64,000 nt of DNA from Clostridiales bacterium (GTDB lineage: Bacteria; Bacillota; Clostridia; Christensenellales; Aristaeellaceae), in NCBI GenBank assembly GCA_015056205.1, contig SVGS01000009.1:1-64000 (forward strand), in the 5' to 3' direction. The translations under genes and the position numbers were made by a program. Each line of letters starts with the position of its first letter. Position 1 is the first letter of the stretch. The notes under the pieces are model-generated. The model was not told the origin of the DNA, did no database searches, and saw nothing but the letters and a program-made list of their open reading frames with translations. Positions 11,129 through 26,545 of this stretch are shown in pieces.

Positions 11129-12100
11129 ATGAAAAACAGACTGATTTCCCTGCTGATCGCGGCAGTACTGGCAGTTGTATTTCTGAGCGGCATCGCGGCC
11201 GCGGAGGAGCTGGAGGTTCATCTCGGAGACCAGCCGTCCTTCTTCATTCTGAAGATCGCGGATTACAACGGCTACTTTACGGAAGAATTCGAAGGCACGG
11301 GCGTCAAAATCGTTGTGGACAACTTTGTGAATCAGGGATCCGCCATTGTGGAAGCGATGAACGCGGGCAACGTCCAGCTGGGCGTGATCGGAACCATGCC
11401 CCTGGTTACGGCGGACGCCAACGGCAGCGGCTTCAAAGCCCTGGCCAGCGTGAACCTTTCGGTGGACGGCTTCAAGCTTTACGCCGGGGCGGGCAAGGGC
11501 ATCACCACCGTGGAGGAATTCAAGGGAAAGAAGATCGCCGTCAAGTTCTCCTCCAACGAGCATGAGATGCTGCTGACCCTGCTGGCAAAAGCCGGCCTGG
11601 GAGATACGGATGTGGAAATTGTCAACATGTCCGCGGACGACAGCCTGAACTCCCTGATCACCGGGGATGTGGACGGCGCGATTCTGAAGGGCGACCAGCT
11701 GAACGCGGCCAATGCCAGCGGCGCCAATATCGTGGCGGACAACAGCCAGAGCGGCCTGATCGGCAACTATCTGATCGGCCGGGAGGATTTCATCACGGCG
11801 CACCCAGAAGTGGTGACCGGCGTTCTGAAGGTGCTGGAGAAGGCCAGGATCTGGATTGATGAGAATCCGGAAAAGACCGTAGACATCTTTGCCGGGCTGA
11901 CCAATACAGACAAGGAAGTGACGAAGACCAGCTTTGAGTCCCGGACCCGCTCCATCAGTATCGATGAGGATAAATTCGCGGCTCCGATTAACCGGACGCT
12001 TGAATTCCTGAAGGGACAGGGAACCATCGACGATTCCCTGAAGCTGGAGGACATCCTGGATCCCAGCTATTACACCAACGCGGGTATCAGCGAGAAGTGA
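11129..12100 (+). CDS. ABC transporter substrate-binding protein, TauA/SsuA/NMT1 type
   Basis: 323 residues with a signal peptide ending GIAAAEE and no lipobox cysteine. The fold is that of NMT1/SsuA/TauA periplasmic binding proteins: VDNFVNQGSAIVEAMNAGNVQLGVIGTMPLV, then FKGKKIAVKFSSNEHEMLLTLLAKAGL. Members bind sulfonates, taurine, nitrate or thiamine precursors. The start has GGAGG at good spacing. The matching permease (13472) and ATPase (15414) are separated from it by enzyme genes, which implies the imported compound is processed by them. A sulfonate is the best guess from the sulfur context. Confidence 0.88.
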   Translation: MKNRLISLLIAAVLAVVFLSGIAAAEELEVHLGDQPSFFILKIADYNGYFTEEFEGTGVKIVVDNFVNQGSAIVEAMNAGNVQLGVIGTMPLVTADANGSGFKALASVNLSVDGFKLYAGAGKGITTVEEFKGKKIAVKFSSNEHEMLLTLLAKAGLGDTDVEIVNMSADDSLNSLITGDVDGAILKGDQLNAANASGANIVADNSQSGLIGNYLIGREDFITAHPEVVTGVLKVLEKARIWIDENPEKTVDIFAGLTNTDKEVTKTSFESRTRSISIDEDKFAAPINRTLEFLKGQGTIDDSLKLEDILDPSYYTNAGISEK

Positions 12101-12132
12101 CCTGCGGGGAGGACAAGGAAACAAGCATGCAC

Positions 12133-12170
12133 GGGGAATGGCGGAGAAAAGGAACCTCCGCCATTTCCCC
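12133..12170 (+). other. Stable stem-loop between binding-protein gene and PLP-enzyme gene
   Basis: GGGGAATGGCGGAG (12133-12146) pairs with CTCCGCCATTTCCCC (12156-12170), with one bulged base and a nine-base loop. No T-run follows, so it is not a simple terminator. Hairpins in this position often stabilise the binding-protein mRNA and lower downstream expression. Confidence 0.75.
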
Positions 12171-12194
12171 GCGCAGATCGGGAGGGAAGAAAAA

Positions 12195-13406
12195 ATGGCG
12201 GCAACCGGAAGCCTGGCAAAAGCCCTGGTCTGTCCCCGGTGCGGGAAGACCTTTTCCATCGGAGAAGTGCATCAGCTGTGCGAATGCGGATCGCCCCTGC
12301 TGGTAGCATACGATCTTGAAAAAGCAAAGGAGACGCTGAACCGGAACAGCTTTCACGGACGCGGAGCCAGCCTGTGGAGATACCGGGAGCTGCTGCCGGT
12401 GCAGGATGACCGGAATATCGTGACGCTGGGAGAGGGTTACACCCCTCTTTTACCGCTGGAAAGAGCCGGAAAAAAATCGGGCATTCCGCACCTGTACCTG
12501 AAGGATGAAGGGATTATTCCCACGGGCACCTTCAAGGCCCGCGGCGCCGCGGTCGGTGTTTCCCGGGCAAAGGAACTGGGAATCCGGCAGCTGGCCATGC
12601 CCACCAACGGCAACGCGGGGGCCGCCTGGTCCGTATACGGCGCCAGAGCCGGCATCGGGGTGACGATCGTGATGCCGGAGGACGCGCCGAAGATTACCCG
12701 GAACGAGTGCGCCGCGGCCGGGGCGAAGCTTTACCTGGTCCGGGGGCTGATCAGCGACTGCGGAAAAATCGTGGGAGCGGGCGTAAAGGCCCACGGCTGG
12801 TACGACGCGTCAACCCTGAAGGAACCTTACCGCATCGAGGGCAAGAAAACCATGGGGCTGGAAATCGCGGAACAGTTCCGCTGGCAGCTGCCGGACGTGA
12901 TCCTGTATCCTACCGGCGGGGGCGTCGGCATGATCGGCATCTGGAAGGCGCTGAAGGAGCTGAAGGAAATCGGAATTGCGGAGGGGGCGCTTCCCCGGCT
13001 GGTTGCCGTACAGGCGGAAGGCTGCGCGCCGATCGTCCGGGCGTATCGGGAAGGGAAGAAGGAATCGGTTTTCTTTGAAAACTCGAAGACGGTCGCCTTC
13101 GGAATCAATGTGCCCAAAGCCCTGGGAGATTTCCTGGTGCTGGAGGCCATTGCGGAAACAGACGGCTGCGCAAAAGCTGTTTCGGACGAACAGATCCTGG
13201 CCGCCCTGGGAGAGCTGGCCCGGGAGGAAGGCGCCTTTGTCTGCCCGGAGGGAGCGGCGATCTACGCGGCGGCCAAAGCGCTGCGGGAAGAAGGCTGGAT
13301 CCGGGAGCAGGACCGGGTGGTACTGCTGAACACCGGCGCCGGCATCAAGTATCCGGATACGCTGAACGTATCCGTGCCGTATCTGGAAAAGGACGCGGCG
13401 CTCTGA
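12195..13406 (+). CDS. Threonine-synthase-like PLP enzyme (fold type II)
   Basis: 403 residues. An N-terminal zinc-ribbon with CPRC and CECG (residues 13-35) precedes a fold-II PLP domain. The PLP lysine is in GTFKARGA (Lys114), and the phosphate-binding glycine loop is PTGGGVGM. Relatives include threonine synthase and cysteate synthase, which catalyse beta/gamma replacement or elimination. There are no other threonine-biosynthesis genes nearby. Its position inside a TauABC-like transporter operon favours a role on an imported C3 sulfonate, such as cysteate cleavage or formation; that is inference. The ATG at 12195 follows GGGAGGG. Confidence 0.82.
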   Translation: MAATGSLAKALVCPRCGKTFSIGEVHQLCECGSPLLVAYDLEKAKETLNRNSFHGRGASLWRYRELLPVQDDRNIVTLGEGYTPLLPLERAGKKSGIPHLYLKDEGIIPTGTFKARGAAVGVSRAKELGIRQLAMPTNGNAGAAWSVYGARAGIGVTIVMPEDAPKITRNECAAAGAKLYLVRGLISDCGKIVGAGVKAHGWYDASTLKEPYRIEGKKTMGLEIAEQFRWQLPDVILYPTGGGVGMIGIWKALKELKEIGIAEGALPRLVAVQAEGCAPIVRAYREGKKESVFFENSKTVAFGINVPKALGDFLVLEAIAETDGCAKAVSDEQILAALGELAREEGAFVCPEGAAIYAAAKALREEGWIREQDRVVLLNTGAGIKYPDTLNVSVPYLEKDAAL

Positions 13407-13471
13407 CGGCGGCCGGGCAGCGACGGAACAGTTTCCGGCGATCTTTCCCGGAAGAAAGGAAGAAAACGGAC

Positions 13472-14278
13472 ATGGAAACGAAAAAAAACGGCGGCGGAAC
13501 TCCGGGAAAAAGAACGGGAAAAGGGGACGTGCGCTATCTGTGGTACGCGCTCTCCTGGGTGCTGCTGGCGGCTTTTCTGGCATTCTGGCAGCTTTCCGCC
13601 ACGAACCGCTGGGTGAATCCCACCATCGTTTCCATGCCATCCAAAATCTGGGACCGGTTTGTATCCATGGTTTCCAACGGATCCCTGTTCAACCATATCG
13701 GTTCAAGCCTGGGCCGCGTGCTGCAGGGCTTCCTGACCGGCGGCATCACGGGACTGCTGCTGGGGCTTCTGATGGGCCTGAGCCCGCGGTTTGAGGCGGT
13801 ATCCAGCCTGTTTGTCAGCCTGCTGCGGCCGATTCTGCCCATCGCGTGGATTCCGATCCTGATCCTGGCCATGGGAATCGGCGAGGAATCCAAGGTAGCC
13901 GTAATCTCCATCGGCAGCTTCTGGCCCATGCTGCTGGATACCATCAATGGCGTGCGCAGCGTGGACAAACAGCTGCTGGAGCTGGGCGATGTACTGGAGA
14001 AGGACCGGAAGACCAAAATTCTCCGGCTGGTGCTGCCCTCCGCCATTCCTTCCATCTTCACCGGGGCGCGCCAGGCGATCAGCCGGGCCTGGTCCTGCGT
14101 GGTGACGGCGGAGATGATCGCGGCCAGCTCCGGCGTGGGTTTCCTGATTCAGTACGGCCGGGAACTGTCCCAGCCTCCGCTGATGTTTGTCGGCGTCACG
14201 GTGATCGGGCTGATCGGCCTGGCCATTGACTGGCTGACCAGCCGCCTGGAGCGGCGGCTTCTGTACCGGAACCGGTAA
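13472..14278 (+). CDS. ABC transporter permease, TauC/SsuC type
   Basis: 268 residues with six membrane helices. The ABC permease EAA-like loop is present: ELGDVLEKDRKTKILRLVLPSAIPSIFTGARQAI, the sequence that couples to the ATPase. The length is normal for SsuC/TauC. It pairs with the binding protein at 11129 and the ATPase at 15414. It starts 65 bp after the PLP enzyme, with AAGGAAG upstream. Confidence 0.9.
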   Translation: METKKNGGGTPGKRTGKGDVRYLWYALSWVLLAAFLAFWQLSATNRWVNPTIVSMPSKIWDRFVSMVSNGSLFNHIGSSLGRVLQGFLTGGITGLLLGLLMGLSPRFEAVSSLFVSLLRPILPIAWIPILILAMGIGEESKVAVISIGSFWPMLLDTINGVRSVDKQLLELGDVLEKDRKTKILRLVLPSAIPSIFTGARQAISRAWSCVVTAEMIAASSGVGFLIQYGRELSQPPLMFVGVTVIGLIGLAIDWLTSRLERRLLYRNR

Positions 14279-14291
14279 GGAGGAAACGGAT

Positions 14292-15389
14292 ATGGTAACG
14301 GTCAAAGCTCCGGAGATGTATCTGAATGAATACGGCATCCGGAAAGAAACGGGAAAATATCTGTCGGAATTCGGCCCCCGCGTTTTCATTGTCGCGGGAA
14401 AGACTGCATGGGAAGAGACCGGCAGGGATGTGACCGCCGGCCTGGCGGCATGGCATTGTGTTCCGGATGTGCGGATTATGACCGGGTATCCGACCGTTGA
14501 GACGGTGCGGCAGTACGCCTGGGAAGCATACGTCGCGAAGGCGGACGCGGTTCTGGGGATCGGCGGCGGGCGGGTGATCGATGCCGCGAAGGCTGCCGGA
14601 AACCTGTGCGGGCTCCCGGTCGCCGCGCTGCCCACCATCGCCGCAACCTGTGCCTGCTGGGCGGCGAGATCCATCCTGTATGACGCGGAGGGAAGCTTTG
14701 ACCGGATCCAGTGGAACCGGGAAAACACCCGGCTGATCCTGGCGGATACGGAAATCCTGACCCGGGCGCCGCGGCGCACTCTGGCTTCCGGCATTCTGGA
14801 CAGCATGGCGAAATGGTATGAGTTTGAACCGCTGATTGCCGCGGATCCCGGAGATCTGGTGCTGCGGCACGACGTGGCAACGGCGCGGCTGACCCTGGAT
14901 CTGCTTCGGGAGGAAGGACCGGAGGTATACCGGGGCGGCGGGACGCCGAAACAGTGGCAGCGCGTGACGGACGCCATCTTCTACCTGACGGGTGCTACCG
15001 GCAGCTTTGCCGCGGGAAATGCCTACCGGGGTTTTGCGCATTCCTGGTATTTCTCCACCACCCGGATCCCTCAGAGCCGGCACCGGATGCATGGGGAAAA
15101 GGTCGCCTTCGGCCTGCTGGTTCAGTTTCTGCTGGCGGGAAAGGATGAAGCCTGGCTGCGGGATTTCATGGATACGCTGCTGATGTATGACATGACGGAC
15201 GTGCCGGGAGACTGGCAGGTGCCGGATGAGGAGACCATGATCCGGGAATTGTCCGAGCGAATCATCCGGGAATGGCCGGTAGTCCTGGAGAAAAAACAGG
15301 CGGAAAGCGCGTCGCAGATCGCGGAAGCTGTCCGGGAGGCTTCCGGGCGGCTGCGGAAAGCCCGGAAGAATGCTCTTCGGGAATCATGA
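14292..15389 (+). CDS. Iron-containing alcohol dehydrogenase, glycerol-dehydrogenase type
   Basis: 365 residues of the GldA-like family. The NAD-binding loop is GIGGGRVIDAAKA. Candidate metal ligands are the Asp in SGILDSMAKWYE and the His residues in RGFAHSWYF and HRMHGEKVAFG. Such enzymes oxidise vicinal diols or polyols at a secondary alcohol. In this operon a sulfonated diol such as dihydroxypropanesulfonate is conceivable, but plain glycerol-type activity cannot be excluded. AAGGAGG at 14277-14283 positions the start, and the gene directly follows the permease. Confidence 0.85.
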   Translation: MVTVKAPEMYLNEYGIRKETGKYLSEFGPRVFIVAGKTAWEETGRDVTAGLAAWHCVPDVRIMTGYPTVETVRQYAWEAYVAKADAVLGIGGGRVIDAAKAAGNLCGLPVAALPTIAATCACWAARSILYDAEGSFDRIQWNRENTRLILADTEILTRAPRRTLASGILDSMAKWYEFEPLIAADPGDLVLRHDVATARLTLDLLREEGPEVYRGGGTPKQWQRVTDAIFYLTGATGSFAAGNAYRGFAHSWYFSTTRIPQSRHRMHGEKVAFGLLVQFLLAGKDEAWLRDFMDTLLMYDMTDVPGDWQVPDEETMIRELSERIIREWPVVLEKKQAESASQIAEAVREASGRLRKARKNALRES

Positions 15390-15413
15390 GAACGCGGAAG
15401 AGGGAAGAAGAGA

Positions 15414-16208
15414 ATGACGGAAAAAGCGAAACAGGCCGGCGGGGAAATCTCCATCCGTCACGCGAAGAAAAGCTTCCGGATCGAAGGGCGGACGCTGGAG
15501 GTGCTTGGGGATATCGACCTGACCATTGAAGCGGGGGATATCGTCAGCATCATCGGCGCCAGCGGGTGCGGCAAATCCACTCTTCTGCGGCTGATCGCCG
15601 GGCTGGATTTCCCGGACGGGGGAGAGGTCCGGATCGGCGGGAAAAAAGTGGAGAAACCCTCCGTGAATGTCGGGGTGCTGTTCCAGGAATCCCGGCTGCT
15701 GCCCTGGGACACGACAGAGAAGAACATTGCCTTCGGTCTGCCGGAAAAGTTTCCCCGGGATCAGAAGAAAAAACTGGTGGCGGAGTATATGCACCTGGTG
15801 GGCCTGGACGGCTTTGAAAAGGCGCTGCCCAGCCAGCTTTCCGGGGGCATGCAGAAGCGCGTGGCGATTGCCCGGACGCTGATCAACCGGCCCGGGGTGC
15901 TTCTGCTGGACGAGCCCTTCGGCGCTCTGGACGCTTTTACCCGGATGAACCTGCAGGAGGAGATCATCCGGATCCGGAAACAGGAGCGCATGACCACCGT
16001 GCTGGTAACCCATGATATCGACGAGGCGATCTATATGGGCAACAAGGTGATCATCATGTCCGCCAAGCCGGGCGTGATCAGCAAGGTGATCCGGGTGGAG
16101 CTGCCGGAACCCCGGCGCCGCACCAGCGGAGATTTCGCGCTGCTGCGGGCCCGCGTATTCCGGGAATTCTACGGCGAACAGGAACTGCCGGAGGAATACT
16201 CCATCTGA
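15414..16208 (+). CDS. ABC transporter ATP-binding protein, TauB/SsuB type
   Basis: 264 residues. Walker A is GASGCGKSTLL, the signature LSGGMQKRVAIAR, and Walker B VLLLDEPFGALD followed by the switch His in THDIDEA. Sequence style and length fit the sulfonate/nitrate/taurine subfamily. It completes the transporter begun at 11129. Confidence 0.93.
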   Translation: MTEKAKQAGGEISIRHAKKSFRIEGRTLEVLGDIDLTIEAGDIVSIIGASGCGKSTLLRLIAGLDFPDGGEVRIGGKKVEKPSVNVGVLFQESRLLPWDTTEKNIAFGLPEKFPRDQKKKLVAEYMHLVGLDGFEKALPSQLSGGMQKRVAIARTLINRPGVLLLDEPFGALDAFTRMNLQEEIIRIRKQERMTTVLVTHDIDEAIYMGNKVIIMSAKPGVISKVIRVELPEPRRRTSGDFALLRARVFREFYGEQELPEEYSI

Positions 16209-16251
16209 AACCGGAAACGGAACGCGGACGAAAAGAAAGGGGGTGCGCGGC

Positions 16252-17337
16252 GTGACAGACGGGGAGCGGACCGGATACGGCGTGATTTCCGTCCGGGACT
16301 ACCGGAAAAAAACGGAAGCCGTTTTCCGGGGGCTGGGTTTTTCCCCGGAGGAGAGCCGGATCATCACGGGTGTGCTGCTGGCGGCGGACCTGTTCGGGGT
16401 GGAAAGCCACGGCATCTCCAGAATCATGAAATATGTGAGGCTGGTTCGGGAAGGGAGCGTGAACCGGAAGGCGGAAGCGTTGATCCTGAAGGAAACGCCG
16501 GTATCCGCTCTGCTGGACGCGCAGTCCGCCATGGGACAGCTGGTTTCCGAAAGAGCCATGGGACTGGCCATCGAAAAAGCCCGGAAGGCCGGTATCGGTA
16601 TGGTGCAGGTCCGGCATTCGAACCACTTTGGCATTGCCGGCTACTATGCCCTGAAGGCGGCGGAGCAGGGGCTGATCGGCGTGGCCATGACCAACACCCA
16701 GGCGATCATGGTGCCCACCTTTTCCGCTGAGGCGCTGCTGGGATCCAATCCCATCGCGGTTGCTTTTCCCGCGGGGGAGGTTCCCTTCCTGTTTGACGCG
16801 GCTGCCACCGTGGTGACCCGGGGTAAACTGGAACTGTATGACAAGCTCGGAAAGGAGCTGCCCAGCGACTGGGCTGTCAGCCATACGGGAACAGTCAGCC
16901 GGGATCCGGGAGAGGTGCTGCGGGACATCCGGGAGAAGCGGGGAGGCGGCATCCTGCCCGCCGGAGGCGCGGGCGAGGAAATGGCCGGATACAAAGGCTA
17001 CGGATTCGGCATGATCTGCGAGCTGATGACCGGCGTTCTTTCCGGCGGGACGACGGCGTACCATAAACAGGAAAAGGGCGATACCAGCCATGCTTTTTAC
17101 GCGGTCAGTCCGGAGCTTTTCGGCGATGCGGGGGAGATCCGGAGGGCGGCGCAGCGGCTGATGGATGAGATTCACGCGGCCCGGCCGGCGGAGGGACAGA
17201 AACAGATCTTCATCGCCGGTGAAAAGGAGTTCCGGCGCCGCGCGGAACGGACGGAGAACGGAATCCCCCTGAGCCTGAAGGTGCTGAAGGAGCTGGATTC
17301 GCTCCTTGCGGAAACGGCCGGAAAGGAGCAGCTATGA
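16252..17337 (+). CDS. Malate/L-sulfolactate dehydrogenase family oxidoreductase
   Basis: 361 residues of the Ldh2/ComC family of NAD(P)-dependent 2-hydroxyacid dehydrogenases, a fold distinct from classical malate dehydrogenase. Family landmarks include ADLFGVESHGISR near the N-terminus, the catalytic-region stretch VRHSNHFGIAGYYA, and KGYGFGMICELMTGVLSGG. The family contains true sulfolactate dehydrogenases, which interconvert sulfolactate and sulfopyruvate, but also malate, lactate and ureidoglycolate enzymes. The transporter context makes sulfolactate attractive. The GTG at 16252 is preferred because of the AAAGGGGG spacing; a GTG at 16243 is possible. It overlaps the LysR gene by four bases. 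Confidence 0.85.
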   Translation: MTDGERTGYGVISVRDYRKKTEAVFRGLGFSPEESRIITGVLLAADLFGVESHGISRIMKYVRLVREGSVNRKAEALILKETPVSALLDAQSAMGQLVSERAMGLAIEKARKAGIGMVQVRHSNHFGIAGYYALKAAEQGLIGVAMTNTQAIMVPTFSAEALLGSNPIAVAFPAGEVPFLFDAAATVVTRGKLELYDKLGKELPSDWAVSHTGTVSRDPGEVLRDIREKRGGGILPAGGAGEEMAGYKGYGFGMICELMTGVLSGGTTAYHKQEKGDTSHAFYAVSPELFGDAGEIRRAAQRLMDEIHAARPAEGQKQIFIAGEKEFRRRAERTENGIPLSLKVLKELDSLLAETAGKEQL

Positions 17338-18299
17338 CCCTGCAGCAGATCCTGTATGCGCTGACCGTCGAGGAATACGGCTCCATGAACAAGGCGGCGG
17401 AGAAACTGTTTATCGTCCAGCCCACCCTGACCAGCGCCATCCGGGAACTGGAGAAGGAAACGGGGGTTACGATTTTCCTGCGGACCTACCGGGGCATCCT
17501 TCCGACGCCGGAGGGCGCCGAGTTGCTGAAGGATCTGCGGGAACTGTACCGGCATTACACCGGGATCCGGCACAAATATGCGGAGGAAGGGGATTACAAG
17601 CGAAAATTCGGGGTTTCCGCCCAGCACTATTCCTTCGCGGTGAAAGCCTTTGTGGAGATGGCCCGGCAGTATGACATGAAGCAGTTCGACTTTGCCATCC
17701 GGGAGACCCAGACCCGGAGCGTGCTGACGGACGTCGGATCGCTCCGGAGCGAGGTGGGGGTACTGTATGTCTCCAGCCTGAACGAGCGCGCGCTGAAGCG
17801 GCTGATGGCGGAGCAGGATCTGGTCTTCACACCGCTGGTTCGCTGCCGGGCCTATGTCTATCTGTGGGAAGGGCATCCCCTGGCCGGGGAAAAGAACCTG
17901 GGCATGGATCAGCTGGAGCCCTATCCCTGCCTTTCCTTTGAACAGGAAGGGCAGGATGACCTCTTCGCGGAGGAGATCCTGACGGAAAACGTCTATTCCA
18001 GAACCGTGAAGGTGAACGACCGGAGCACCATGCTGAACCTGATGGTGGGACTGAACGGTTATACCCTCTGCTCCGGCGTGATCTCCAGCGATCTGAATGG
18101 CGACGGATTCAAGGTGATCCCCTTCCGGGAGGACCGGGAGAATCCGAACAGCATCATGGAGATCGGGTATATCATCAAACGCAACAGCCTGCTGAGTGAA
18201 ATGGGCGTGAAATACATCGCGGAGCTGAGGAAATATTTTCAGGAGAACCCGGAAAACGTGCTCTCCGTTGAAACGGAGGAAGCGGGAGGAGGATTGTGA
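17334..18299 (+). CDS. LysR-family transcriptional regulator
   Basis: 321 residues. The N-terminal winged helix-turn-helix shows the family pattern LYALTVEEYGSMNKAAEKLFIVQPTLTSAIRELEKETGVTIFLR. A periplasmic-binding-like effector domain follows. It is translationally coupled to the genes on both sides (ATGA overlaps), so it is part of the operon rather than divergent, which is unusual for LysR. It likely senses a sulfur metabolite, as CysB-type regulators do, and could bind the palindrome at 11076-11094. Both points are inference. Confidence 0.9.
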   Translation: MTLQQILYALTVEEYGSMNKAAEKLFIVQPTLTSAIRELEKETGVTIFLRTYRGILPTPEGAELLKDLRELYRHYTGIRHKYAEEGDYKRKFGVSAQHYSFAVKAFVEMARQYDMKQFDFAIRETQTRSVLTDVGSLRSEVGVLYVSSLNERALKRLMAEQDLVFTPLVRCRAYVYLWEGHPLAGEKNLGMDQLEPYPCLSFEQEGQDDLFAEEILTENVYSRTVKVNDRSTMLNLMVGLNGYTLCSGVISSDLNGDGFKVIPFREDRENPNSIMEIGYIIKRNSLLSEMGVKYIAELRKYFQENPENVLSVETEEAGGGL

Positions 18300-18550
18300 T
18301 GGCGGCATATGAAATCCAGGCGGATGAAAGGGTGGATATCACGGATGTGGTCTGCCCGGTGACCTTTGTGAAGACCAAGGCAGCCCTGGAGGAAATGGAA
18401 GACGGACAGATCCTGCAGGTGCATATGAACGATGGGGAACCCGTGCTGAACGTTCCCCGAAGCGTCAAGGAGGAGGGGCATCAGATCCTGAAGCTCTATA
18501 CCAATGACGACGGAACCTATGAACTGTTTATCCGGAAAGCGGGGGAATGA
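18299..18550 (+). CDS. TusA-like sulfur-carrier/sulfurtransferase protein
   Basis: 83 residues with a TusA-type beta-alpha start: DVVCPVTFVKTKAALEEM. Cys19 is the presumed persulfide carrier. The usual CPxP motif reads CPVT here, losing the second proline. The TK pair, which is also conserved, is kept. TusA relatives pass sulfane sulfur between enzymes. GGGAGGAGG precedes ATG 18299, which overlaps the LysR stop. It is followed four bases later by the sulfite reductase, suggesting it helps deliver or accept sulfur in that reaction. Confidence 0.85.
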   Translation: MAAYEIQADERVDITDVVCPVTFVKTKAALEEMEDGQILQVHMNDGEPVLNVPRSVKEEGHQILKLYTNDDGTYELFIRKAGE

Positions 18551-18554: not shown

Positions 18555-19415
18555 ATGGCAGCGGATTACGCGACACTGAAAAAAGGCGGCTTCATGCGCC
18601 AGAAACAGAAGGATCATTTTTCCCTCCGGCTGTCGGTGGTGGGCGGCCAGGTCAGCGCTCAGCAGCTGGCGGCCATTACCCGGGTGGCGGAAAAATACGG
18701 GCATGGCCACATCCATCTGACCTCCCGCCAGGGGATCGAGATTCCCTTCATCCGCCTCGAAGATATTGACGCGGTGAAGGACGCGCTGGCGGAGGGCGGC
18801 GCGAAACCCGGCGTATGCGGGCCGAGGGTGCGGACGATTACCGCCTGCCAGGGGTCGGAAGTGTGTCCGAACGGCTGCGTGGATACGGAGGGACTGGCCC
18901 GGGTGCTGAACGACCGGTATTTCGGCCGGGAGCTGCCGCATAAGTTCAAATTCGGCGTCACGGGCTGCCAGAACAACTGCCTGAAGGCGGAAGAGAACGA
19001 TGTGGGGATTAAGGGCGGCCTGAAGGTGGCCTGGAAACCGGAAGCGTGCATCAACTGCGGGCTGTGCGAGAAGGTCTGCCGGGAAAAGGCGGTCACCCTG
19101 ACGGACGGAAAGGTCGCCGTGGATCAGGAAAAGTGCAACTACTGCGGGCGCTGCGCCTTCTCCTGCCCCACGGATGCCTGGGATACCCGGCCGGGATACA
19201 TGGTCAGCTTCGGCGGCGTATTCGGCAACAAAATCCACAAAGGGGAAGCCATTATTCCCTTTATAGAAGATCAGGAAACCCTGCTGCGCGTGTGCGACGC
19301 GGCCCTGGACTTTTTCCGGGAGAACGCGCAGAGCGGTGAACGGTTCAGGTTTACGATTGAACGGGTCGGAAAGGAGAAGCTGGAAGCAGCGGTCAGAGAC
19401 GCTTATGAAGGATAA
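18555..19415 (+). CDS. Siroheme sulfite/nitrite reductase with ferredoxin insert
   Basis: 286 residues. The siroheme/4Fe-4S ligands are present as Cys98-x5-Cys104 and Cys138-x3-Cys142 (TACQGSEVC and TGCQNNCLK). Two 4Fe-4S ferredoxin motifs are built in (Cys165/168/171/175 and Cys194/197/200/204). This compact layout matches AsrC-like and other small anaerobic sulfite reductases rather than the large CysI type. It should reduce sulfite to sulfide in the cytoplasm using ferredoxin-type electrons. The neighbouring precorrin-2 dehydrogenase domain would supply siroheme. Nitrite is a possible alternative substrate. Confidence 0.9.
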   Translation: MAADYATLKKGGFMRQKQKDHFSLRLSVVGGQVSAQQLAAITRVAEKYGHGHIHLTSRQGIEIPFIRLEDIDAVKDALAEGGAKPGVCGPRVRTITACQGSEVCPNGCVDTEGLARVLNDRYFGRELPHKFKFGVTGCQNNCLKAEENDVGIKGGLKVAWKPEACINCGLCEKVCREKAVTLTDGKVAVDQEKCNYCGRCAFSCPTDAWDTRPGYMVSFGGVFGNKIHKGEAIIPFIEDQETLLRVCDAALDFFRENAQSGERFRFTIERVGKEKLEAAVRDAYEG

Positions 19416-20283
19416 AAGAAGACGGGGACTGTTTTTCCTGGCCGTGCTGCTGACGGCCCTGAGCCTGATTTTCGCCGGGACAGCGGAGAACCGGGTGATT
19501 GCCCTGTCCAGATCCAACGCGGAGCTGTGGATTCTGGCCGGGGGCAGCCTGACAGCCACGTCGGACGATGCCATGACCCTCCCGGGACTGAATCCGGACG
19601 TGGTTTCTCTGGGAGATATGGATCATGTCAGCCTGGAAAGCGTCGCGGCGCTGGAACCGGATCTGCTGATTCTCTTTTCGGACGAACCAGCCCAGCGGGC
19701 TCTGGGGGAGGCGGCCAAAGGCATCGGAATACAGGTGCTCGGCCTGGATATCAACGGCTTCCGGGATTATGCCGACACGATGAAGGATCTGACCGGGCGC
19801 ACCGGCCGGGAGGATCTGTATGAGAAGAACGTTCTCCGTGTGGAAGAGGAGATCAGCGCGGAGATTGCCCGGGCCGGCAGCCGCTTCGCCGGGAAAAGCT
19901 ACCTGCTTCTGCATGTATCTGCCACGAAAAGCAAGGCGGAGAAGAACAATTATTTCACCTGCGAGATGCTGAACCGCCTGGGCATGGTCAACATCGCGGG
20001 AGATGAAACGCTGTGGAACGAGCTGTCCATGGAAGCCATTGCGGCGGCGGATCCCGATTATATCCTGGTGGTGCCGCGGGGGAATGATCAGAAAGCCCTG
20101 GAAGGCTTCCGGGAAAAGTTCACCTCCGGTTCGGTCTGGGCGGAGCTGAAGGCCGTGAAGGAAAACCGCTTCCACGTGCTCGCCAAGGAGCTTTTCGGAC
20201 TGAAACCCAATACCCGGTGGGCTGAGGCTTACCGGCGGCTGAGGTCGATTCTGGAGGGGAATGAAGCCGGAGGAACGGAATGA
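19405..20283 (+). CDS. ABC transporter substrate-binding protein, FecB/BtuF type
   Basis: 292 residues with an N-terminal signal anchor (LFFLAVLLTALSLIFAGTA) but no clear lipobox. The class III binding-protein pattern is seen in LNPDVVSLGDMDHVSLESVAALEPDLLILF and AAADPDYILVVPRG. Substrates of this group include siderophores, heme, cobalamin and other metal chelates. It overlaps the reductase gene by 11 bases. In this location it may serve iron or tetrapyrrole supply for siroheme enzymes, or an unknown sulfur compound; sequence does not decide. Confidence 0.85.
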   Translation: MKDKRRRGLFFLAVLLTALSLIFAGTAENRVIALSRSNAELWILAGGSLTATSDDAMTLPGLNPDVVSLGDMDHVSLESVAALEPDLLILFSDEPAQRALGEAAKGIGIQVLGLDINGFRDYADTMKDLTGRTGREDLYEKNVLRVEEEISAEIARAGSRFAGKSYLLLHVSATKSKAEKNNYFTCEMLNRLGMVNIAGDETLWNELSMEAIAAADPDYILVVPRGNDQKALEGFREKFTSGSVWAELKAVKENRFHVLAKELFGLKPNTRWAEAYRRLRSILEGNEAGGTE

Positions 20284-21257
20284 AGAAAGCGGTTTTACCC
20301 GCACTTGTGATGCTGGCTGCCTGCGCGCTGGCGCTGCTGGCCGGGAACAGCGCGGTCAGCGCCGGCCGGACCCTGCAGGTGCTGCTGGGCGGGGGAAGCG
20401 CCACCGAACGCCTGATTGTGCTGCAGGTCCGCCTGCCGCGGGTGCTGGCCGCCGCCGCCGCGGGTGCGGGCCTTTCGGTGTCCGGTTTTCTGCTGCAGGG
20501 GAGCCTGGACAATACGCTGGCTTCCCCCGGCATCCTGGGCATTAACCACGGCGCGGGCCTGTTTGTATTGCTGGCCGCCCTGCTGTTTCCGTATCAGGCC
20601 GCGGCCCGGGGACTGATGGCCTTCGCCGGGGCGCTGCTGGTGACGGGGCTGGTGGTTTCTCTTTCGGCGGTATCCGGTCTGTCCCGGACGTCGGTGATTC
20701 TTTCCGGCGTCGCGGTTTCCGCACTCTGCACGGCGGTATCGGATGTTATCATCTCCCTGAAACCGGAGACCGTGGCGGACCGGGCGGCCTTTCAGCTGGG
20801 CGGCTTCGCCTCCCTGACCGCATCCTCCGTATCCCTGGCGGCGCCGGTGATTCTGGCCGGAATTCTGCTGGCGGCCGTTTTTGCGCCGGCCATGGATCTG
20901 ATGGCGCTGGGAGATGAAACAGCCGGCGGTCTGGGGCTGCCTGTCCGGGCTGTCCGGGGCGGATTCATTCTGTGCGCGGCGCTGCTGGCCGCGGCGGCGG
21001 TGAGCATGTGCGGAATGATCGGATTTGTGGGCCTGCTGGTTCCGAACACGCTCCGGCTGATCCGGCACGGCAGGAGCCGCGGAAGCCTGCTGCTGTGCGC
21101 GGCGTACGGAGCGGCGTTTCTGGTGCTTTGCGACACGCTGGCGCGGCTCGCCGCCTTTCCGTATGAGCTTCCCTGCGGGCTGATCCTGAGCCTGACGGGC
21201 GCACCGTTCCTGATTATGACTCTCCTTCGGAGAAGAAAGCGGCTGGGATTGCAGTGA
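20280..21257 (+). CDS. ABC transporter permease, FecCD type
   Basis: 325 residues, about nine or ten membrane helices. Recognisable FecCD motifs are RLPRVLAAAAAGAGLSVSG, LASPGILGINHGAGLF and the coupling segment CGMIGFVGLLVPNTLR. Overlaps of four bases with both neighbouring genes show tight coupling. Confidence 0.92.
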   Translation: MKKAVLPALVMLAACALALLAGNSAVSAGRTLQVLLGGGSATERLIVLQVRLPRVLAAAAAGAGLSVSGFLLQGSLDNTLASPGILGINHGAGLFVLLAALLFPYQAAARGLMAFAGALLVTGLVVSLSAVSGLSRTSVILSGVAVSALCTAVSDVIISLKPETVADRAAFQLGGFASLTASSVSLAAPVILAGILLAAVFAPAMDLMALGDETAGGLGLPVRAVRGGFILCAALLAAAAVSMCGMIGFVGLLVPNTLRLIRHGRSRGSLLLCAAYGAAFLVLCDTLARLAAFPYELPCGLILSLTGAPFLIMTLLRRRKRLGLQ

Positions 21258-22015
21258 TAGAACTGAAGAATGTGACGACCGGATATCCGGAGGGGGAAAG
21301 CTTTTCAATTCCCGAAGCCCGGTTTGAAAAGGGCCGGATCACGGCGGTCATCGGCCGGAACGGCAGCGGGAAATCCACCCTGCTCCGGGCCATGGCGGGC
21401 CAGCTGCGCTACGGGGGCAGCATCCGGCTGGACGGAGAGGAATGCCGGAAACTGACTCCCGCCGAGCGGGCCCGGAAGGCTGCGTATCTGCCCCAGTTCC
21501 TGCGGAGCGCCCGGATGGACGTGCAGACTCTGGCGGAGCATGGAAGATATCCCTGGCACGGTTCGCTTCGCCGGCTGACGGAGCGGGACCGCGAAAAGGT
21601 GGATAAGGCGATGGAGCGGGCCGGGGTGACGGAGTACAGGCACCGGATGCTGACCGGGCTGTCCGGCGGCGAACGCCAGCGGGCATATCTGGCCATGGTG
21701 ATTGCGCAGGATACGCCGATGATCCTGCTGGATGAGCCGACGACCTATATGGATCCCGGTATGCAGGAGGTGTTCTTTCGCCTGCTTCGGAGCCTGGCGG
21801 AGGAAGGACGCGGAATTGTAACGGTCTGCCATGACCTGCCCCAGACCTTCTCCTTCTGCGACAGGATCTGCGTGATGGCGGAGCATACCCTGTGCGCTTG
21901 CGGAACGCCGGAAGAGCTGGCCCGGCAGGAGGAACTGATGCAAAGGACGCTAGGGGTCAGCCTGAAGAATACCGGGGATCCGGAACTGGTGTTTCCCTGG
22001 GCCCTGAAGAGGTGA
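21254..22015 (+). CDS. ABC transporter ATP-binding protein, FecE type
   Basis: 253 residues. Walker A is GRNGSGKSTLLRAM, the signature LSGGERQRAYLAM and Walker B MILLDEPTTYMD. The start is GTG at 21254, overlapping the permease stop. It is the partner of the permease and binding protein just upstream. Confidence 0.92.
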   Translation: MIELKNVTTGYPEGESFSIPEARFEKGRITAVIGRNGSGKSTLLRAMAGQLRYGGSIRLDGEECRKLTPAERARKAAYLPQFLRSARMDVQTLAEHGRYPWHGSLRRLTERDREKVDKAMERAGVTEYRHRMLTGLSGGERQRAYLAMVIAQDTPMILLDEPTTYMDPGMQEVFFRLLRSLAEEGRGIVTVCHDLPQTFSFCDRICVMAEHTLCACGTPEELARQEELMQRTLGVSLKNTGDPELVFPWALKR

Positions 22016-22019: not shown

Positions 22020-23813
22020 ATGGCATATTTCCCAATGATGACAGACCTTTCCGGAGGAGAAACACTGGTGATCGGCGGCGGAGAGGAAGGCACGAAGAAA
22101 GTGCGCGTACTGAAGGATTTCGGCGCGCGGGTAACCCTGATCGCCCCGGAAGCCCGGGAGGAAGCGATCCGGGAAGCGGACCGGTATGCGCGCCGCGGCT
22201 TTGAGACAGCCGATCTGGATGCCGCGGAATGGAAGCTGGTGGTGGCGGCTACGGAGAACCGGGAGCTGAACCGCCGGATCAGCGAGGGCACCCGGGAAAG
22301 GCGGATTCCCGTGAACGTGGTGGACGATCCGGAGCTGTGCAGTTTCATCTTTCCGGCAGTGATCCGTGACGGGGATGTGATTTGCTCCATATCCAGCGGG
22401 GGAAAGAGCCCCTATGTGGCGCAGCTGGTAAAGGAAAAGGTCAGGGGGTGCTGGCCGGAAGGCATCGGCCGGATCAACGACCGGATGGGGGAGTACAGGG
22501 AACAGGCGAAGCGGGAATACGCGGACCGGGAGGAGCGGCGGCGCTTTCTCCGGGAAAGGCTGACGGAACTGCTGAACCCGGGGACGGGAACCACCGGCTT
22601 TACCACCGCGCTGCTGCATGGCGGGGAAGCTTTTCCGCAGGGCGGAACGCTGCCGCCCGTGGCCCAGGTGAATGCCTTCCGTTATGAGCGGATGGAGGAT
22701 CTGGAACGGGTGTTTGAACACAGGCAGGCGGGATATGCCTATTCCCGGATCGGCAATCCGACCGTCACGGCTTTTGAACAGCGGATCAACGCGCTGGAAC
22801 ATGGCCAGGGGGCTGTGGCCTGCGCAAGCGGCATGGCGGCGCTGACCGCGGCGATTCTGGCCGTATGCCGAAGCGGGGACGAAATCATCGCCGGCCGGGG
22901 GCTGTACGGCGGCACGATCGACCTGTTTCATGATCTGGAACAGCTGGGGATTCGTACGGTCTTCGCGGAAAAGATGACCGGAGAGAGCATTCGACCGCTG
23001 ATCACGGAAAAAACGCGGCTGGTCTTCGGAGAAGTGATCAGCAACCCGGCCCAGCAGGTGCTGGATATCCCTTCCGTGGCCGCAGCAGCCCACGAGGCAG
23101 GTATTCCGCTGTTCGTGGACAGCACGACGGCAACTCCCTGGCTGATCCGGCCACTGGAAAAGGGCGCGGATGCTGTGATTCATTCCTCCTCCAAGTATAT
23201 CAACGGGGGAGGAAATGCCATCGGCGGGATCATTGTGGACGGCGGAAAGTTCGACTGGAATTTCGAAAAGCATACCGCCCTGGCGGAATTCCGGAAATTC
23301 CGCAGGCGCGCCTTCATGGTCCGCCTCCGGACGGATCTGTGGGAAAACCTGGGCGGTTGCATGGCGCCGATGAATGCCTTCCTGAGCTATATCGGCTGCG
23401 AAACCCTGGGGCTCAGGATGAAAAGAATCTGCGGCAACGCGGCCGCGCTGGCGCGTGCGCTGGCCGGGATGCCGGGCATTCGGGTGAATTATCTGGGGCT
23501 GGAGCAGCATCCGGATCATGCGCTGGCCGGAAGCCTGATGAATGGCTTCGGCGGGATTCTGAACTTCAGGGCGGGCTCGCGGGAGAGGGCTTACCGGATC
23601 ATCAACGCGCTGAAATACGCGGCCATTGCCAGCAATATCGGCGATGTGCGCACGCTGGTGATCCATCCGGCCTCCACACTGTATATCCGGTCCGGGGTTC
23701 AGGAACGGGAAGCCGCGGGTGTATATGACGATACGGTCCGCGTCAGCGTGGGGATAGAGGATCCGGAGGATCTGATCGCGGATTTCCGCCGGGCTGTCGG
23801 GGCGGGCGGCTGA
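22020..23813 (+). CDS. Fusion of precorrin-2 dehydrogenase (siroheme synthase N-domain) and MetY-type sulfhydrylase
   Basis: 597 residues in two enzymes. Residues 1 to about 190 match the CysG N-terminal/Met8p family: VIGGGEEGTKKVRVLKDFGARVTLIAP, then NVVDDPELCSFIFPAVIRDGDVICSISSGGKSP. They should oxidise precorrin-2 to sirohydrochlorin. Residues from about 200 match Cys/Met-metabolism PLP enzymes: GQGAVACASGMAALTAAIL, SNPAQQVLDIPS, and the PLP lysine in HSSSKYINGGGN (Lys392). This fits O-acetylhomoserine sulfhydrylase (MetY). I do not know of this fusion elsewhere. It joins making the siroheme of sulfite reductase with using the sulfide produced. Confidence 0.9.
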   Translation: MAYFPMMTDLSGGETLVIGGGEEGTKKVRVLKDFGARVTLIAPEAREEAIREADRYARRGFETADLDAAEWKLVVAATENRELNRRISEGTRERRIPVNVVDDPELCSFIFPAVIRDGDVICSISSGGKSPYVAQLVKEKVRGCWPEGIGRINDRMGEYREQAKREYADREERRRFLRERLTELLNPGTGTTGFTTALLHGGEAFPQGGTLPPVAQVNAFRYERMEDLERVFEHRQAGYAYSRIGNPTVTAFEQRINALEHGQGAVACASGMAALTAAILAVCRSGDEIIAGRGLYGGTIDLFHDLEQLGIRTVFAEKMTGESIRPLITEKTRLVFGEVISNPAQQVLDIPSVAAAAHEAGIPLFVDSTTATPWLIRPLEKGADAVIHSSSKYINGGGNAIGGIIVDGGKFDWNFEKHTALAEFRKFRRRAFMVRLRTDLWENLGGCMAPMNAFLSYIGCETLGLRMKRICGNAAALARALAGMPGIRVNYLGLEQHPDHALAGSLMNGFGGILNFRAGSRERAYRIINALKYAAIASNIGDVRTLVIHPASTLYIRSGVQEREAAGVYDDTVRVSVGIEDPEDLIADFRRAVGAGG

Positions 23814-23883: not shown

Positions 23884-24090
23884 ATGGTCATTACGGTAGC
23901 AGGCGAGAAGAAGGAAGTGGCGGAGGGAATTACCGTCGCGCAGCTGATTGAACAGGAGAAGGTGGAGATGCCGATGTATGTCACGGTGTCGGTCAACGAG
24001 GAGTTTATCGAATCCGGTTCCTTTGACACGCATGTACTGAAGGAAAACGATGAGGTGGAGTTCCTCTACTTCATGGGAGGCGGAAGATAA
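23884..24090 (+). CDS. hcyS: ThiS/MoaD-like sulfur-carrier protein, HcyS type
   Basis: A 68-residue beta-grasp protein (MVITVAGEKKEVAEGITVAQLI) ending FMGGGR. Active carriers end in GG, which becomes a thiocarboxylate. Here an extra Arg68 follows, so a protease must expose the glycine, as HcyD does for HcyS in Wolinella succinogenes. The JAMM protease two genes downstream is the obvious candidate. GGAGG-type sites precede the start, and the stop overlaps the start of the E1-like gene. Thiamine or molybdopterin carriers would be alternatives, but no thi or moa genes are nearby. Confidence 0.85.
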   Translation: MVITVAGEKKEVAEGITVAQLIEQEKVEMPMYVTVSVNEEFIESGSFDTHVLKENDEVEFLYFMGGGR

Positions 24091-24914
24091 TGGCTTTTAC
24101 GAATGAACAGCTGGAACGCTACTCGCGCCATATCATCCTGAAAGAGATCGGCGTGAAAGGACAGAAGAAACTGCTGAACGGAAAGGTGCTGATCATCGGC
24201 GCCGGCGGGCTCGGCGCCCCGGCGGCGATGTATCTGGCCGCGGCCGGTGTCGGTACCATCGGGATCGCGGACGCGGACGTGGTGGATCTTTCCAATCTGC
24301 AGCGGCAGGTGATTCATACCACGCCCGACCTGGGAAAGAAGAAGGTGGAATCGGCCGCGGAAACCATGCGTGCCATCAACCCGGACATTACCGTGAACAC
24401 GTATCATGAGTTCGTTTCCGCGGCCAACATTATGGACCTGATCCGGGATTACGATTTCATCCTGGACGGGACGGATAATTTTCCGGCCAAGTTCCTGATC
24501 AACGATGCCTGCGTCATGGCCGGGAAACCCTTCTCCCATGCCGGAATCATCCGGTTCAGAGGACAGCTGACCACGATCATTCCTGGACAGGGCCCCTGCT
24601 ACCGGTGCATTTTCAAAAATCCGCCGCCGAAGGATGCCGTGCCCACCTGTAAACAGGCCGGCGTAGTCGGGGCTATGGCCGGCGTCATCGGCTGCCTCCA
24701 GGCGATGGAAGCCATTAAATACCTGACCGGAGCGGGGGAACTGCTCGTCGGATACCTGCTGACCTATGACGCGCTGAAAATGGAATTCCATAAGGTGAAG
24801 CTTCCCCCCAGAGGGAAGGGCTGCGCCGTCTGCTCGGACACGCCCACCATTACGGAACTGATCGATTATGAACAGGCTGCCTGCGATCTGAAGCCGGGCG
24901 GCGGACAGGGATGA
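24090..24914 (+). CDS. hcyF: E1-like carrier-activating enzyme (ThiF/MoeB/HcyF type)
   Basis: 274 residues. The ATP-binding loop is IIGAGGLGAPAA (residues 36-46), with the adenylation motif DADVVDLSNLQRQ. A zinc site is formed by Cys170/Cys173 and Cys245/Cys248. The possible catalytic cysteine, Cys187 in PTCKQAG, is present. It should adenylate the C-terminal glycine of the carrier encoded immediately upstream (stop/start overlap), ready for attack by sulfide or persulfide. Confidence 0.9.
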   Translation: MAFTNEQLERYSRHIILKEIGVKGQKKLLNGKVLIIGAGGLGAPAAMYLAAAGVGTIGIADADVVDLSNLQRQVIHTTPDLGKKKVESAAETMRAINPDITVNTYHEFVSAANIMDLIRDYDFILDGTDNFPAKFLINDACVMAGKPFSHAGIIRFRGQLTTIIPGQGPCYRCIFKNPPPKDAVPTCKQAGVVGAMAGVIGCLQAMEAIKYLTGAGELLVGYLLTYDALKMEFHKVKLPPRGKGCAVCSDTPTITELIDYEQAACDLKPGGGQG

Positions 24915-24921
24915 AACGACG

Positions 24922-25380
24922 ATGAAGATCACCATACGGCAAACCGATTTTGATGCCATGACCCGATACGCGCGAAAGCTTTCCCCGGAGGAGGCCTGCG
25001 GACTGATTGCCGGGGAGGATCAGGCGGACGGCAGCCGGGAAATCCGGAAGGTATATTATCTGACCAACCGGGATCATACCAGCGAGCATTTCACGATTGA
25101 CCCACGGGAACAGCTGGCTGCCGTCCGGGATATGAGGGCGGAGGGGCTGAAGCCCCTGGGCAACTGGCATTCCCATCCGGAAACGCCCTCACGGCCTTCG
25201 GAGGAGGATCAGCGCCTGGCCAATGACAGCAGAGCCAGCTATCTGATTCTTTCCCTGGCGGAACCGGAGCATCCGGTGCTGAACGCCTTCCATATCGAAG
25301 GCGCGCCGGAATCAAAAAAAGTCCGGAAGGAAGATCTTGTCATCCTTCCGGAATCGGGGAGTAACGGCGATGATCAATGA
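24922..25380 (+). CDS. hcyD: JAMM/M67 metalloprotease, HcyD/Mec type
   Basis: 152 residues with a complete JAMM zinc signature: His83-Ser-His85, seven residues, Ser93, two residues, Asp96 (HSHPETPSRPSEED), and an upstream Glu in SPEEACGLIAGE. Prokaryotic relatives release cysteine (Mec with CysO) or homocysteine (HcyD with HcyS) from the carrier tail, and HcyD also trims the carrier precursor. The carrier here ends GGGR, so both trimming and release are plausible. It follows the E1-like gene by seven bases. Confidence 0.9.
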   Translation: MKITIRQTDFDAMTRYARKLSPEEACGLIAGEDQADGSREIRKVYYLTNRDHTSEHFTIDPREQLAAVRDMRAEGLKPLGNWHSHPETPSRPSEEDQRLANDSRASYLILSLAEPEHPVLNAFHIEGAPESKKVRKEDLVILPESGSNGDDQ

Positions 25381-26545
25381 AACATACCGTGCCATGCTGG
25401 GCCGGAAATCCGTGATCCGGGAGCTCAGCGAGCTGGCTGCCCGGATGGCGGGGGAGAAAAACGGGCCGGAGGAAATTTTCGATTTCAGCCTGGGAAATCC
25501 GTCGGTTCCCGTTCCGGAAGCGGTAACGGAATGCGCCGTTCGGCTGCTTCGGGATCAGCCGTCCCTGGTGCACGGATACAGCCCCACGCTGGGAATTCCC
25601 CAGGTGAAGGAAAAGCTCGCCGCCAGCCTCAGCAGGCGGTTCGGCCTTTCCTATACGGGGGCGGATATTTTTCCGACCAGCGGCGCCGGCGGCGCCCTCG
25701 CACATGCTTTCCGCCTGGTGACGGTGCCGGGGGATACCATCCTGACCTTTGCGCCGCATTTTCCGGAATACCGTCCATATGTCACGCTGGCCGGCTGCCG
25801 GCTGGAAGTGGTTCCGCCGGATCTGAAGGCTTTCCAGATTGACTTCGACCGGCTGGAGCAGTTTTTTACGAAAGACGTACAGGCCGTCCTGATCAACAGT
25901 CCAAACAATCCATCCGGCGCTGTGTATTCCGCGCAGACCCTGGAAAAGCTTGCCGGGGTGCTGGAACGGAAGGAGCGGGAATACAGCCATGAGATCTGGC
26001 TGATTTCCGATGAGCCGTACCGGGAAATTGTCTTCGGCGGCGGGACGCAGCCCTGTCCCGCCCGTTTCTGGCCCCGGACCATCACCTGCTATTCCTTCTC
26101 CAAATCCCTGTCCATGCCGGGGGACCGCATTGGGTATGTGGCGGTTAATCCGGAGAGCGGGGTCAGCCATGAACTGGCGGCCATGTGCGGACAGGTATCC
26201 AGGGGCCTCGGACACAACTGCCCGACAGCCCTGATGCAGCTGATCGCGGCCGAATGCTGCGACCTGACAGCGGACCTTTCTGTTTATGAGACCAATATGA
26301 ATCTGCTGTATGACGGGCTGACGGAGCTGGGATTTGACATCGTGCGGCCTGGCGGAACTTTCTACATGACGCCCCGGGCGCCCGAAGCGGATGCCGGGCA
26401 GTTTTCGCGCAGGGCGCTGGCGTACGGGATTGTAGTGGTTCCCTGTGACACCTTCGGCCTGCCGGGCTATTTCCGAATTGCCTACTGTACCGATACGGAA
26501 AAGGTCCGGCGTTCGCTTTCAGCCTTCAGAAAACTGATGGCGTGA
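25370..26545 (+). CDS. PLP-dependent aminotransferase, class I/II
   Basis: 391 residues of fold type I. Typical motifs are HGYSPTLGIPQVKEKLAASL, the Asn of SPNNPSGAVYS, the Asp/Tyr of SDEPYREIVF, and the PLP lysine in SFSKSLSMPGDRIGYV. The ATG at 25370 overlaps the protease gene by 11 bases, making this the last gene of the sulfur run. Substrates of such enzymes are not readable from sequence. Transamination of sulfopyruvate to cysteate, or of a methionine/homoserine-related keto acid, would fit the context. Confidence 0.88.
   Translation: MINETYRAMLGRKSVIRELSELAARMAGEKNGPEEIFDFSLGNPSVPVPEAVTECAVRLLRDQPSLVHGYSPTLGIPQVKEKLAASLSRRFGLSYTGADIFPTSGAGGALAHAFRLVTVPGDTILTFAPHFPEYRPYVTLAGCRLEVVPPDLKAFQIDFDRLEQFFTKDVQAVLINSPNNPSGAVYSAQTLEKLAGVLERKEREYSHEIWLISDEPYREIVFGGGTQPCPARFWPRTITCYSFSKSLSMPGDRIGYVAVNPESGVSHELAAMCGQVSRGLGHNCPTALMQLIAAECCDLTADLSVYETNMNLLYDGLTELGFDIVRPGGTFYMTPRAPEADAGQFSRRALAYGIVVVPCDTFGLPGYFRIAYCTDTEKVRRSLSAFRKLMA

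Follow-up and report, generated by a model that had tools for sequence, protein, structure and literature searches.

A 17-gene clostridial locus that probably links organosulfonate uptake to homocysteine synthesis

Contig SVGS01000009.1 of an anaerobic gut bacterium of the Clostridiales (assembly GCA_015056205.1; 2.94 Mb, 46 contigs, 91% complete) carries at positions 11129..26545 a run of 17 genes that a preliminary description, made from the bare sequence, took to be a sulfur island leading from an organosulfonate to homocysteine. The stretch that was analysed, contig C31 of the source genome, comprises 64,000 nucleotides and is referred to as the window. The genes all lie on the + strand and fill the locus, every open reading frame (ORF) is open and the intergenic gaps vary from -14 to +70 nt (calculated with fecB starting at 19402, first Met codon 19405, and sir at 18549, first Met codon 18555), much as the overlapping or closely spaced one-strand arrangement had been described. 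Pfam and NCBIfam searches of all 17 genes also bore out the family names originally given (Table 1). Catalytic motifs are intact: the JAMM motif ExnHxHx7SxxD, the siroheme motifs Cx5C and Cx3C, the pyridoxal phosphate (PLP) lysines, the D/H/H ligands of the iron-containing alcohol dehydrogenase (Fe-ADH) and the two CxxC pairs of the E1-like enzyme.

Table 1. Features of the locus in window coordinates; scores are in bits where so marked.
Feature	Position	Strand	Remarks
Promoter-like site	11029..11057	+	TTGACA, 17 nt, TATCTT, preceding TG; 10/12 matches; site count not above shuffles
TauA/SsuA-type binding protein	11129..12100	+	signal peptide by eye
Threonine-synthase-like PLP enzyme, proposed C-S lyase	12138..13406	+	PRK08197, 649 bits; second Met at 12195
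Permease, TauC/SsuC type	13472..14278	+	PF00528
GldA-like Fe-ADH	14292..15389	+	PF00465; D/H/H ligands
ATPase, TauB/SsuB type	15414..16208	+	PF00005
Ldh2-type 2-hydroxyacid dehydrogenase	16243..17337	+	PF02615, 373 bits
LysR regulator	17334..18299	+	PF00126, PF03466
TusA-like sulfur relay protein	18296..18550	+	PF01206; CP motif
Siroheme sulfite reductase with inserted 2[4Fe-4S] ferredoxin	18555..19415	+	PF01077, PF03460, Fer4; searched from 18549
FecB/BtuF-type binding protein	19405..20283	+	PF01497
FecCD-type permease	20280..21257	+	PF01032
FecE-type ATPase	21254..22015	+	PF00005; FecE model 205 bits, below cut-off 375
Precorrin-2 dehydrogenase-like (Met8) domain fused to MetY	22020..23813	+	PF13241 + PF01053; MetY PLP Lys
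ThiS-like carrier (HcyS-like)	23884..24090	+	ends GGGR; TIGR01683 64.2, above cut-off 37.45
E1-like adenylyltransferase (HcyF-like, ThiF/MoeB)	24090..24914	+	PF00899, 293 bits; two CxxC
JAMM protease (HcyD-like)	24922..25380	+	PF14464, 87 bits; full JAMM motif
Class I aminotransferase	25370..26545	+	PRK06836 466, above cut-off 376

The LysR gene overlaps both of its neighbours by 4 nt, at the ldh2/lysR and lysR/tusA junctions, which argues that the importer half and the carrier half of the locus form one unit. Between 10900 and 26700 both promoter-like sites on the + strand precede tauA (11029-11057 and 11098-11127), and neither promoter-like sites (5 vs 4.5) nor terminator-like sites (15 vs 14.6) were more frequent than in shuffled sequence. 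Riboswitch control was considered and there was no sign of any, an Rfam scan of the window giving no family at gathering score and one weak microRNA match (E 0.22). Base composition does not point to recent import, G+C being 0.61 in the island against 0.59 and 0.57 in its flanks and third-position G+C 0.66-0.80 across the 14 island genes measured. A contig assembled from a yak jejunum metagenome (L122, JAGCBO010000016.1) has the identical gene order from inside tauC to jamm, with 84-99% identity, and the ratio of nonsynonymous to synonymous substitution (dN/dS) between the two was 0.009-0.26 for the 13 genes compared, that for metY resting on 407 of 597 aligned codons. These ratios speak for purifying selection on each of the 13 genes and, with the shared order, indicate that the arrangement is not due to chance. 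Divergent from tauA lies a RidA-family gene (10506-10916, - strand; TIGR00004, 166 bits), the product of which could remove 2-aminoacrylate released by beta-elimination at a PLP enzyme, although genes of this family are widespread and serve housekeeping roles.

Sequence comparison supports the view that no part required for thiocarboxylate-dependent homocysteine synthesis is missing from the carrier half. The carrier ends MGGGR, with a residue following the C-terminal glycines, and residues also follow GGG in each of the 11 homologous carriers obtained from the 12 loci queried, L288 giving none at threshold. The metal motif of the JAMM protease is complete (E24 and HSHPETPSRPSEED), and genes for the E1-like enzyme, MetY and sulfite reductase adjoin that of the carrier. 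The sulfite reductase falls below the cut-off of the AsrC model (154 vs 324); 79 of 391 genomes of the class, its own included, contained a match at E 1e-40 or better. Among the 15 best places besides the window (14 genomes, 45-65% identity) 10 had TusA, E1-like and JAMM genes, making the carrier half a module that recurs among clostridia. JAMM was found in two of 200 genomes of the order, its own included. In another genome of this order (L091, 1-8820) a JAMM gene and part of a ThiS-like gene lie beside a Met8-like gene, with hemA, hemC, cobA/hemD, hemB and hemL recognised by eye as neighbours, a setting consistent with a part in siroheme formation for the Met8-like domain of the MetY fusion. 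The fusion is not a constant feature, as L122 has separate but overlapping ORFs for the Met8-like domain and for MetY (7903-9736), and it could be of recent origin or a sequencing artefact. Two more full-length MetY-type proteins are encoded in the genome, making the carrier-linked MetY an additional one. A FecBC-type importer lies inside the unit (19405-22015), and fecB/fecC-like genes (40-42%) lie on the opposite strand near a carrier module in L077. Plasmid searches with JAMM and sulfite reductase led nowhere.

The importer is of the sulfonate kind and a sulfonate is its presumed ligand. Its binding protein passes TIGR01728 (167.5 vs cut-off 163.5), lies under the taurine- and alkanesulfonate-specific NCBIfam models (76 vs 304 and 73 vs 299) and, when modelled, was closest to SsuA and TauA. 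The closest relatives of the permease (43-49% identity) were found in genomes G548, G520, G480 and G498, and three of the four adjoin either IsrBHDK-like isethionate reductase genes or carrier genes. Those in L275 (G520) and L277 (G498), at 43-47%, lie beside a radical SAM gene and NifHDK-like genes with one P-cluster Cys in each D subunit and three in each K. The IsrBHDK report gives the same pattern and describes the release of sulfite from isethionate by IsrBHDK with SsuCAB (PMC11423573); likeness to Isr was judged against this published pattern. A single run in L275 (5678-16764) holds the IsrBHDK-like set, two binding proteins, one importer and a threonine-synthase-like gene, and the importer perhaps serves two sulfonates. 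Near the related importer in L276 (G480) are a fused BcrAD/HGD-D protein (12607-14646, - strand) and a second activator-like gene recognised by eye (14615-15523, - strand), a possible ATP-driven partner for reductive C-S cutting. Importer and carrier genes are side by side in G548 (L079), where a thioredoxin gene and metK, identified by eye, separate them; between tauA and tauC (16160-17934), in the position of the PLP enzyme in the window, are a radical SAM gene of variant type (NF045502) and a gene for a small protein of no family. In G498 the importer (L277) and carrier genes (L075) are ~22 kb apart on one contig. The overlap of importer and carrier genomes (3/4 against 14/390, hypergeometric p 1.5e-4) is a guide only, since thresholds were chosen after the data had been seen and two of the genomes are from one genus.

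Two dehydrogenases are encoded among the importer genes. The best NCBIfam match of the Ldh2-type enzyme is the L-sulfolactate dehydrogenase ComC (NF040650), at 228 under a cut-off of 500. ComC is reported to favour sulfopyruvate and also to accept oxaloacetate (PMC5695019), so that the substrate of the Ldh2-type enzyme is not settled by its sequence. At E 1e-20 it matched in 40 of 200 genomes of the order, its own included, the relatives having at most 50% identity. Its value as a marker of the unit was rejected, as it is common in the order and no carrier genes surround its best relatives (L036-L041, 46-50%); blastp of these regions with the window proteins gave only weak tauB-type ATPases in two, and four were additionally read by eye. 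The GldA-like enzyme is divergent, scoring 165 against a cut-off of 336 for the glycerol dehydrogenase subfamily, and keeps its metal ligands. It matched at E 1e-35 in 33 of 398 genomes of the phylum (own included), and of the 33 places besides its own 29 were taken as loci. A TauA-like gene adjoins the GldA-like gene in 12 of the 29, from four families, although 7 of the 12 are from one genus, and gldA, tauA, tauC and tauB occurred together in 10 of 19 regions (~14-20 kb) selected after the TauA link had been seen. The link between GldA and sulfonate-type importers therefore extends beyond this operon. Runs of gldA-tauA-tauC-tauB were seen in L202, L203 and L206-L213, from several families of the phylum, that in L202 being followed by an NtaA/DmoA-type monooxygenase.

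The threonine-synthase-like enzyme is the favoured candidate for cutting the C-S bond, on account of the cell's own ThrC elsewhere, the divergence of two ThrC stretches and the occurrence of relatives beside importers of the sulfonate type. It lies below the cut-offs for TIGR00260 thrC (147.5 vs 167.1) and cysteate synthase TIGR03844 (74 vs 325); its relative in L275 passes the former (179.9). When aligned with the solved structures 2zsj, 2d1f and 6cgq, the ThrC loop STGNTSAS reads PTNGNAG and the NSVNP segment reads STLKEP, with NSVNPYRIEGQKT replaced by STLKEPYRIEGKKT; we take both stretches to contact the substrate in ThrC. With housekeeping ThrC excluded, P[TS]xGNAG is kept in all nine aligned sequences of this branch, while STLKEPYRIEGKKT is exact in six, has one change in two (L275 and Chlorohelix) and differs in Natribaculum. 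That the enzyme is the cell's sole ThrC is ruled out by a type-1 ThrC on contig C14, which was found with PF14821. Of 24 genomes selected for a search with the enzyme, only the one that carries the window had it, and a phage search matched 15 records. The relative in L275 (56% identity) lies within the Isr-like run and adjoins a binding protein of its own.

Wider contexts came from a search of a plasmid collection, in which the best 16 of 365 records were opened. In 10 of 10 Azospirillum records among them a binding protein, ATPase and permease accompany the PLP enzyme, and in 9 of the 10 an Ldh2 and a SerA-like 2-hydroxyacid dehydrogenase are also beside it, a pair resembling the SlcC/ComC pair described in PMC10507020. 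Aliarcobacter (L288) has a sulfonate binding protein, SsuD, permease, ATPase, amidohydrolase and the PLP enzyme, followed by a polar amino-acid ABC set, a sulfate binding protein, cysteine synthase, JAMM, ThiS and ThiF. In Aeromonas the PLP enzyme is followed directly by what was recognised by eye as a polar amino-acid ABC set, with two permeases, an ATPase and a binding protein, and in Chlorohelix a phosphoglycerate-dehydrogenase-like gene precedes it, with a TauE/SafE gene ~4 kb further on. Cysteate would explain both kinds of context, the sulfonate importers and the polar amino-acid importers.

As regards the source of sulfite, searches for PF01507 (CysH, CysD) and PF01747 (Sat) gave no protein in this genome or three congeneric ones, and the production of sulfite from sulfate by those routes thus looks absent; such null searches are not absolute, a PF00291 search having missed the second ThrC. 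None of the 17 genes belongs to an Isr-, Xsc- or Isl-type family in Pfam or NCBIfam, and SuyAB, CuyA, Xsc, IslAB and Isr were not searched genome-wide.

Taken together the 17 genes probably form an anaerobic assimilatory unit leading from a sulfonate to homocysteine. Their content, order and intact motifs, the overlap of the halves and the recurrence of the parts are observed, and from these we infer the substrate, the order of the steps and the C-S cleavage. TauABC would import an organosulfonate. Sulfopyruvate would arise from a hydroxy-sulfonate through oxidation by the Ldh2-like and GldA-like enzymes, 3-sulfolactate in both its forms being the likeliest substrate, and would be converted by the aminotransferase to cysteate, from which the PLP enzyme would eliminate sulfite for reduction to sulfide by the siroheme enzyme, the Met8-like domain aiding siroheme maturation. 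The JAMM protease would trim the tail of the carrier, which the E1-like protein would then adenylate, and the carrier thiocarboxylate, perhaps loaded through TusA, would donate its sulfur to MetY for homocysteine. The detailed route from sulfolactate via cysteate, whose chances are close to even, best joins a sulfonate-type importer, two dehydrogenases, an aminotransferase and a beta-type PLP enzyme.

A number of observations weigh against this account. The preliminary description had named the independent occurrence of the two halves, with no shared regulation, as an outcome adverse to its proposal, and in gene content this was found: none of the 15 best sulfite reductase loci had thrC-, gldA- or ldh2-like genes, showing the halves to be separable, 5 of them showed no ThiF or JAMM gene, and L275 has the thrC-like gene and importer with no carrier gene within the 19.5 kb examined. 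In L276 the permease relative is without Isr-like or carrier genes over the same length. The gene order is reproduced elsewhere in part, from tauC to jamm in L122; that contig begins inside tauC, leaving the thrC-like gene outside it, and a single lineage is known to have all the parts together. NCBIfam assigns the PLP enzyme to threonine synthase above cut-off (PRK08197, 649 vs 303), and the Ldh2-type enzyme scores higher with the archaeal malate dehydrogenase 1v9n (268 bits) than with ComC 2x06 (192 bits). Among the plasmid records opened, those of Microvirga, Sphingomonas, Chlorohelix and Natribaculum had no sulfonate importer beside the PLP enzyme; in Azospirillum the binding protein scores poorly against the sulfonate family (80.9 vs 163.5) and the Ldh2 belongs to a different subfamily (28% identity; YbiC type). 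What stands of the proposed island is the complete set of carrier parts, the sulfonate-kind importer, the overlap of the halves, the apparent lack of the CysH/CysD and Sat routes and the recurrence of the PLP enzyme with sulfonate-type importers and 2-hydroxyacid dehydrogenases. The halves are modules that can be separated and have been brought together repeatedly, both in the lineage of the window and in Aliarcobacter, and importer and carrier genes are also close to each other in G548 and G498.

The locus could instead assimilate isethionate, taurine, dihydroxypropanesulfonate (DHPS) or homocysteate, with GldA as its alcohol dehydrogenase and the PLP enzyme acting on another amino-acid intermediate. 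DHPS is a glycerol analogue and GldA is nearest to glycerol dehydrogenases, and relatives of the importer adjoin isethionate-reductase-like genes. However, the lack of Isr-, Xsc- and Isl-type families among the 17 genes, and the Ldh2 and SerA-like enzymes beside the PLP enzyme in Azospirillum, which point to a 2-hydroxyacid, make such a substrate fairly unlikely. It is quite unlikely that two functions are simply adjacent, with a general module from sulfite to homocysteine lying next to an unrelated importer and dehydrogenase set that might, for example, convert methionine hydroxy acid to methionine by the dehydrogenases and aminotransferase. The separate occurrence of the halves would be accounted for, aminotransferases adjoin GldA-like genes in 5 of the 29 loci, and ComC of M. 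jannaschii is described as also oxidising 2-hydroxy-4-mercaptobutyrate (PMC5695019); yet LysR overlaps both halves, the binding protein is of the sulfonate type and both kinds of part occur together in Aliarcobacter.

A biosynthetic role for the PLP enzyme seems very unlikely, whether in coupling a phosphorylated amino acid with sulfite or sulfide, in the manner of cysteate synthase, or as a second threonine synthase. The PRK08197 score agrees with it and cysteate synthase evolved from threonine synthase, according to the same source (PMC5695019), but a housekeeping ThrC is present, the cysteate synthase model is far below cut-off, the two conserved ThrC stretches differ and the adjoining sulfonate importer suggests breakdown rather than synthesis. 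A broader suggestion can be offered tentatively, being rather more likely wrong than right: that the PRK08197 branch with P[TS]xGNAG and STLKEPYRIEGKKT consists of misnamed oxygen-independent C-S lyases for cysteate or a close amino-sulfonate in sulfur-linked lineages, and that this operon holds the first such enzyme to feed sulfite directly into carrier-thiocarboxylate homocysteine synthesis.

The release of sulfur from sulfonates in anaerobes without oxygenases is only partly known, IsrBHDK having been reported in 2024 (PMC11423573). If the reading of a sulfonate-to-homocysteine unit is correct, there would be a PLP-based assimilatory route needing no nitrogenase-like or glycyl-radical enzyme, a misnamed family in several phyla would be corrected, and the C3 sulfonates produced from plant sulfolipid may be tied to methionine synthesis in the ruminant gut.

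Each half of the locus resembles known systems, and a literature search, thin in subscription journals, turned up neither the two halves joined nor the role proposed for the PLP enzyme, which leaves standing the earlier remark that no description of the combination was known. The IsrBHDK-SsuCAB system of Rhodobacter capsulatus (PMC11423573) is similar in its anaerobic sulfonate import by a related importer and its release of sulfite for assimilation; L275 combines an Isr-like set with the PLP enzyme, whereas the 17 genes of the window include no nitrogenase-like enzyme. In the dissimilatory route summarised in PMC10507020, SlcC and ComC interconvert sulfolactate through sulfopyruvate, after which SuyAB, or CuyA for cysteate, acts; the cysteate lyase branch is known from Roseovarius, as cited there. 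The window likewise has two dehydrogenases, one of them of the Ldh2 type, but with a GldA-like enzyme for SlcC, a threonine-synthase-like enzyme for CuyA and assimilatory carrier chemistry downstream. Mycobacterial CysM-CysO-Mec+ reportedly makes cysteine by a JAMM-trimmed carrier thiocarboxylate, and Aliarcobacter L288 is similar in having a CysM-like enzyme with JAMM, ThiS and ThiF, whereas the window has MetY and homocysteine. In Wolinella succinogenes HcyS, HcyF, HcyD, MetY and Sir are said to make homocysteine by a protein thiocarboxylate (a 2011 study, cited in PMC5764234), linked there to sulfate-reduction genes. The window shares with Wolinella a unit of a carrier with a residue after its glycines, an E1-like enzyme, JAMM protease, MetY and sulfite reductase, and differs from it in having a Met8-like domain fused to MetY, a FecBC-type importer within the unit and, in place of sulfate reduction, a sulfonate importer and oxidising enzymes.

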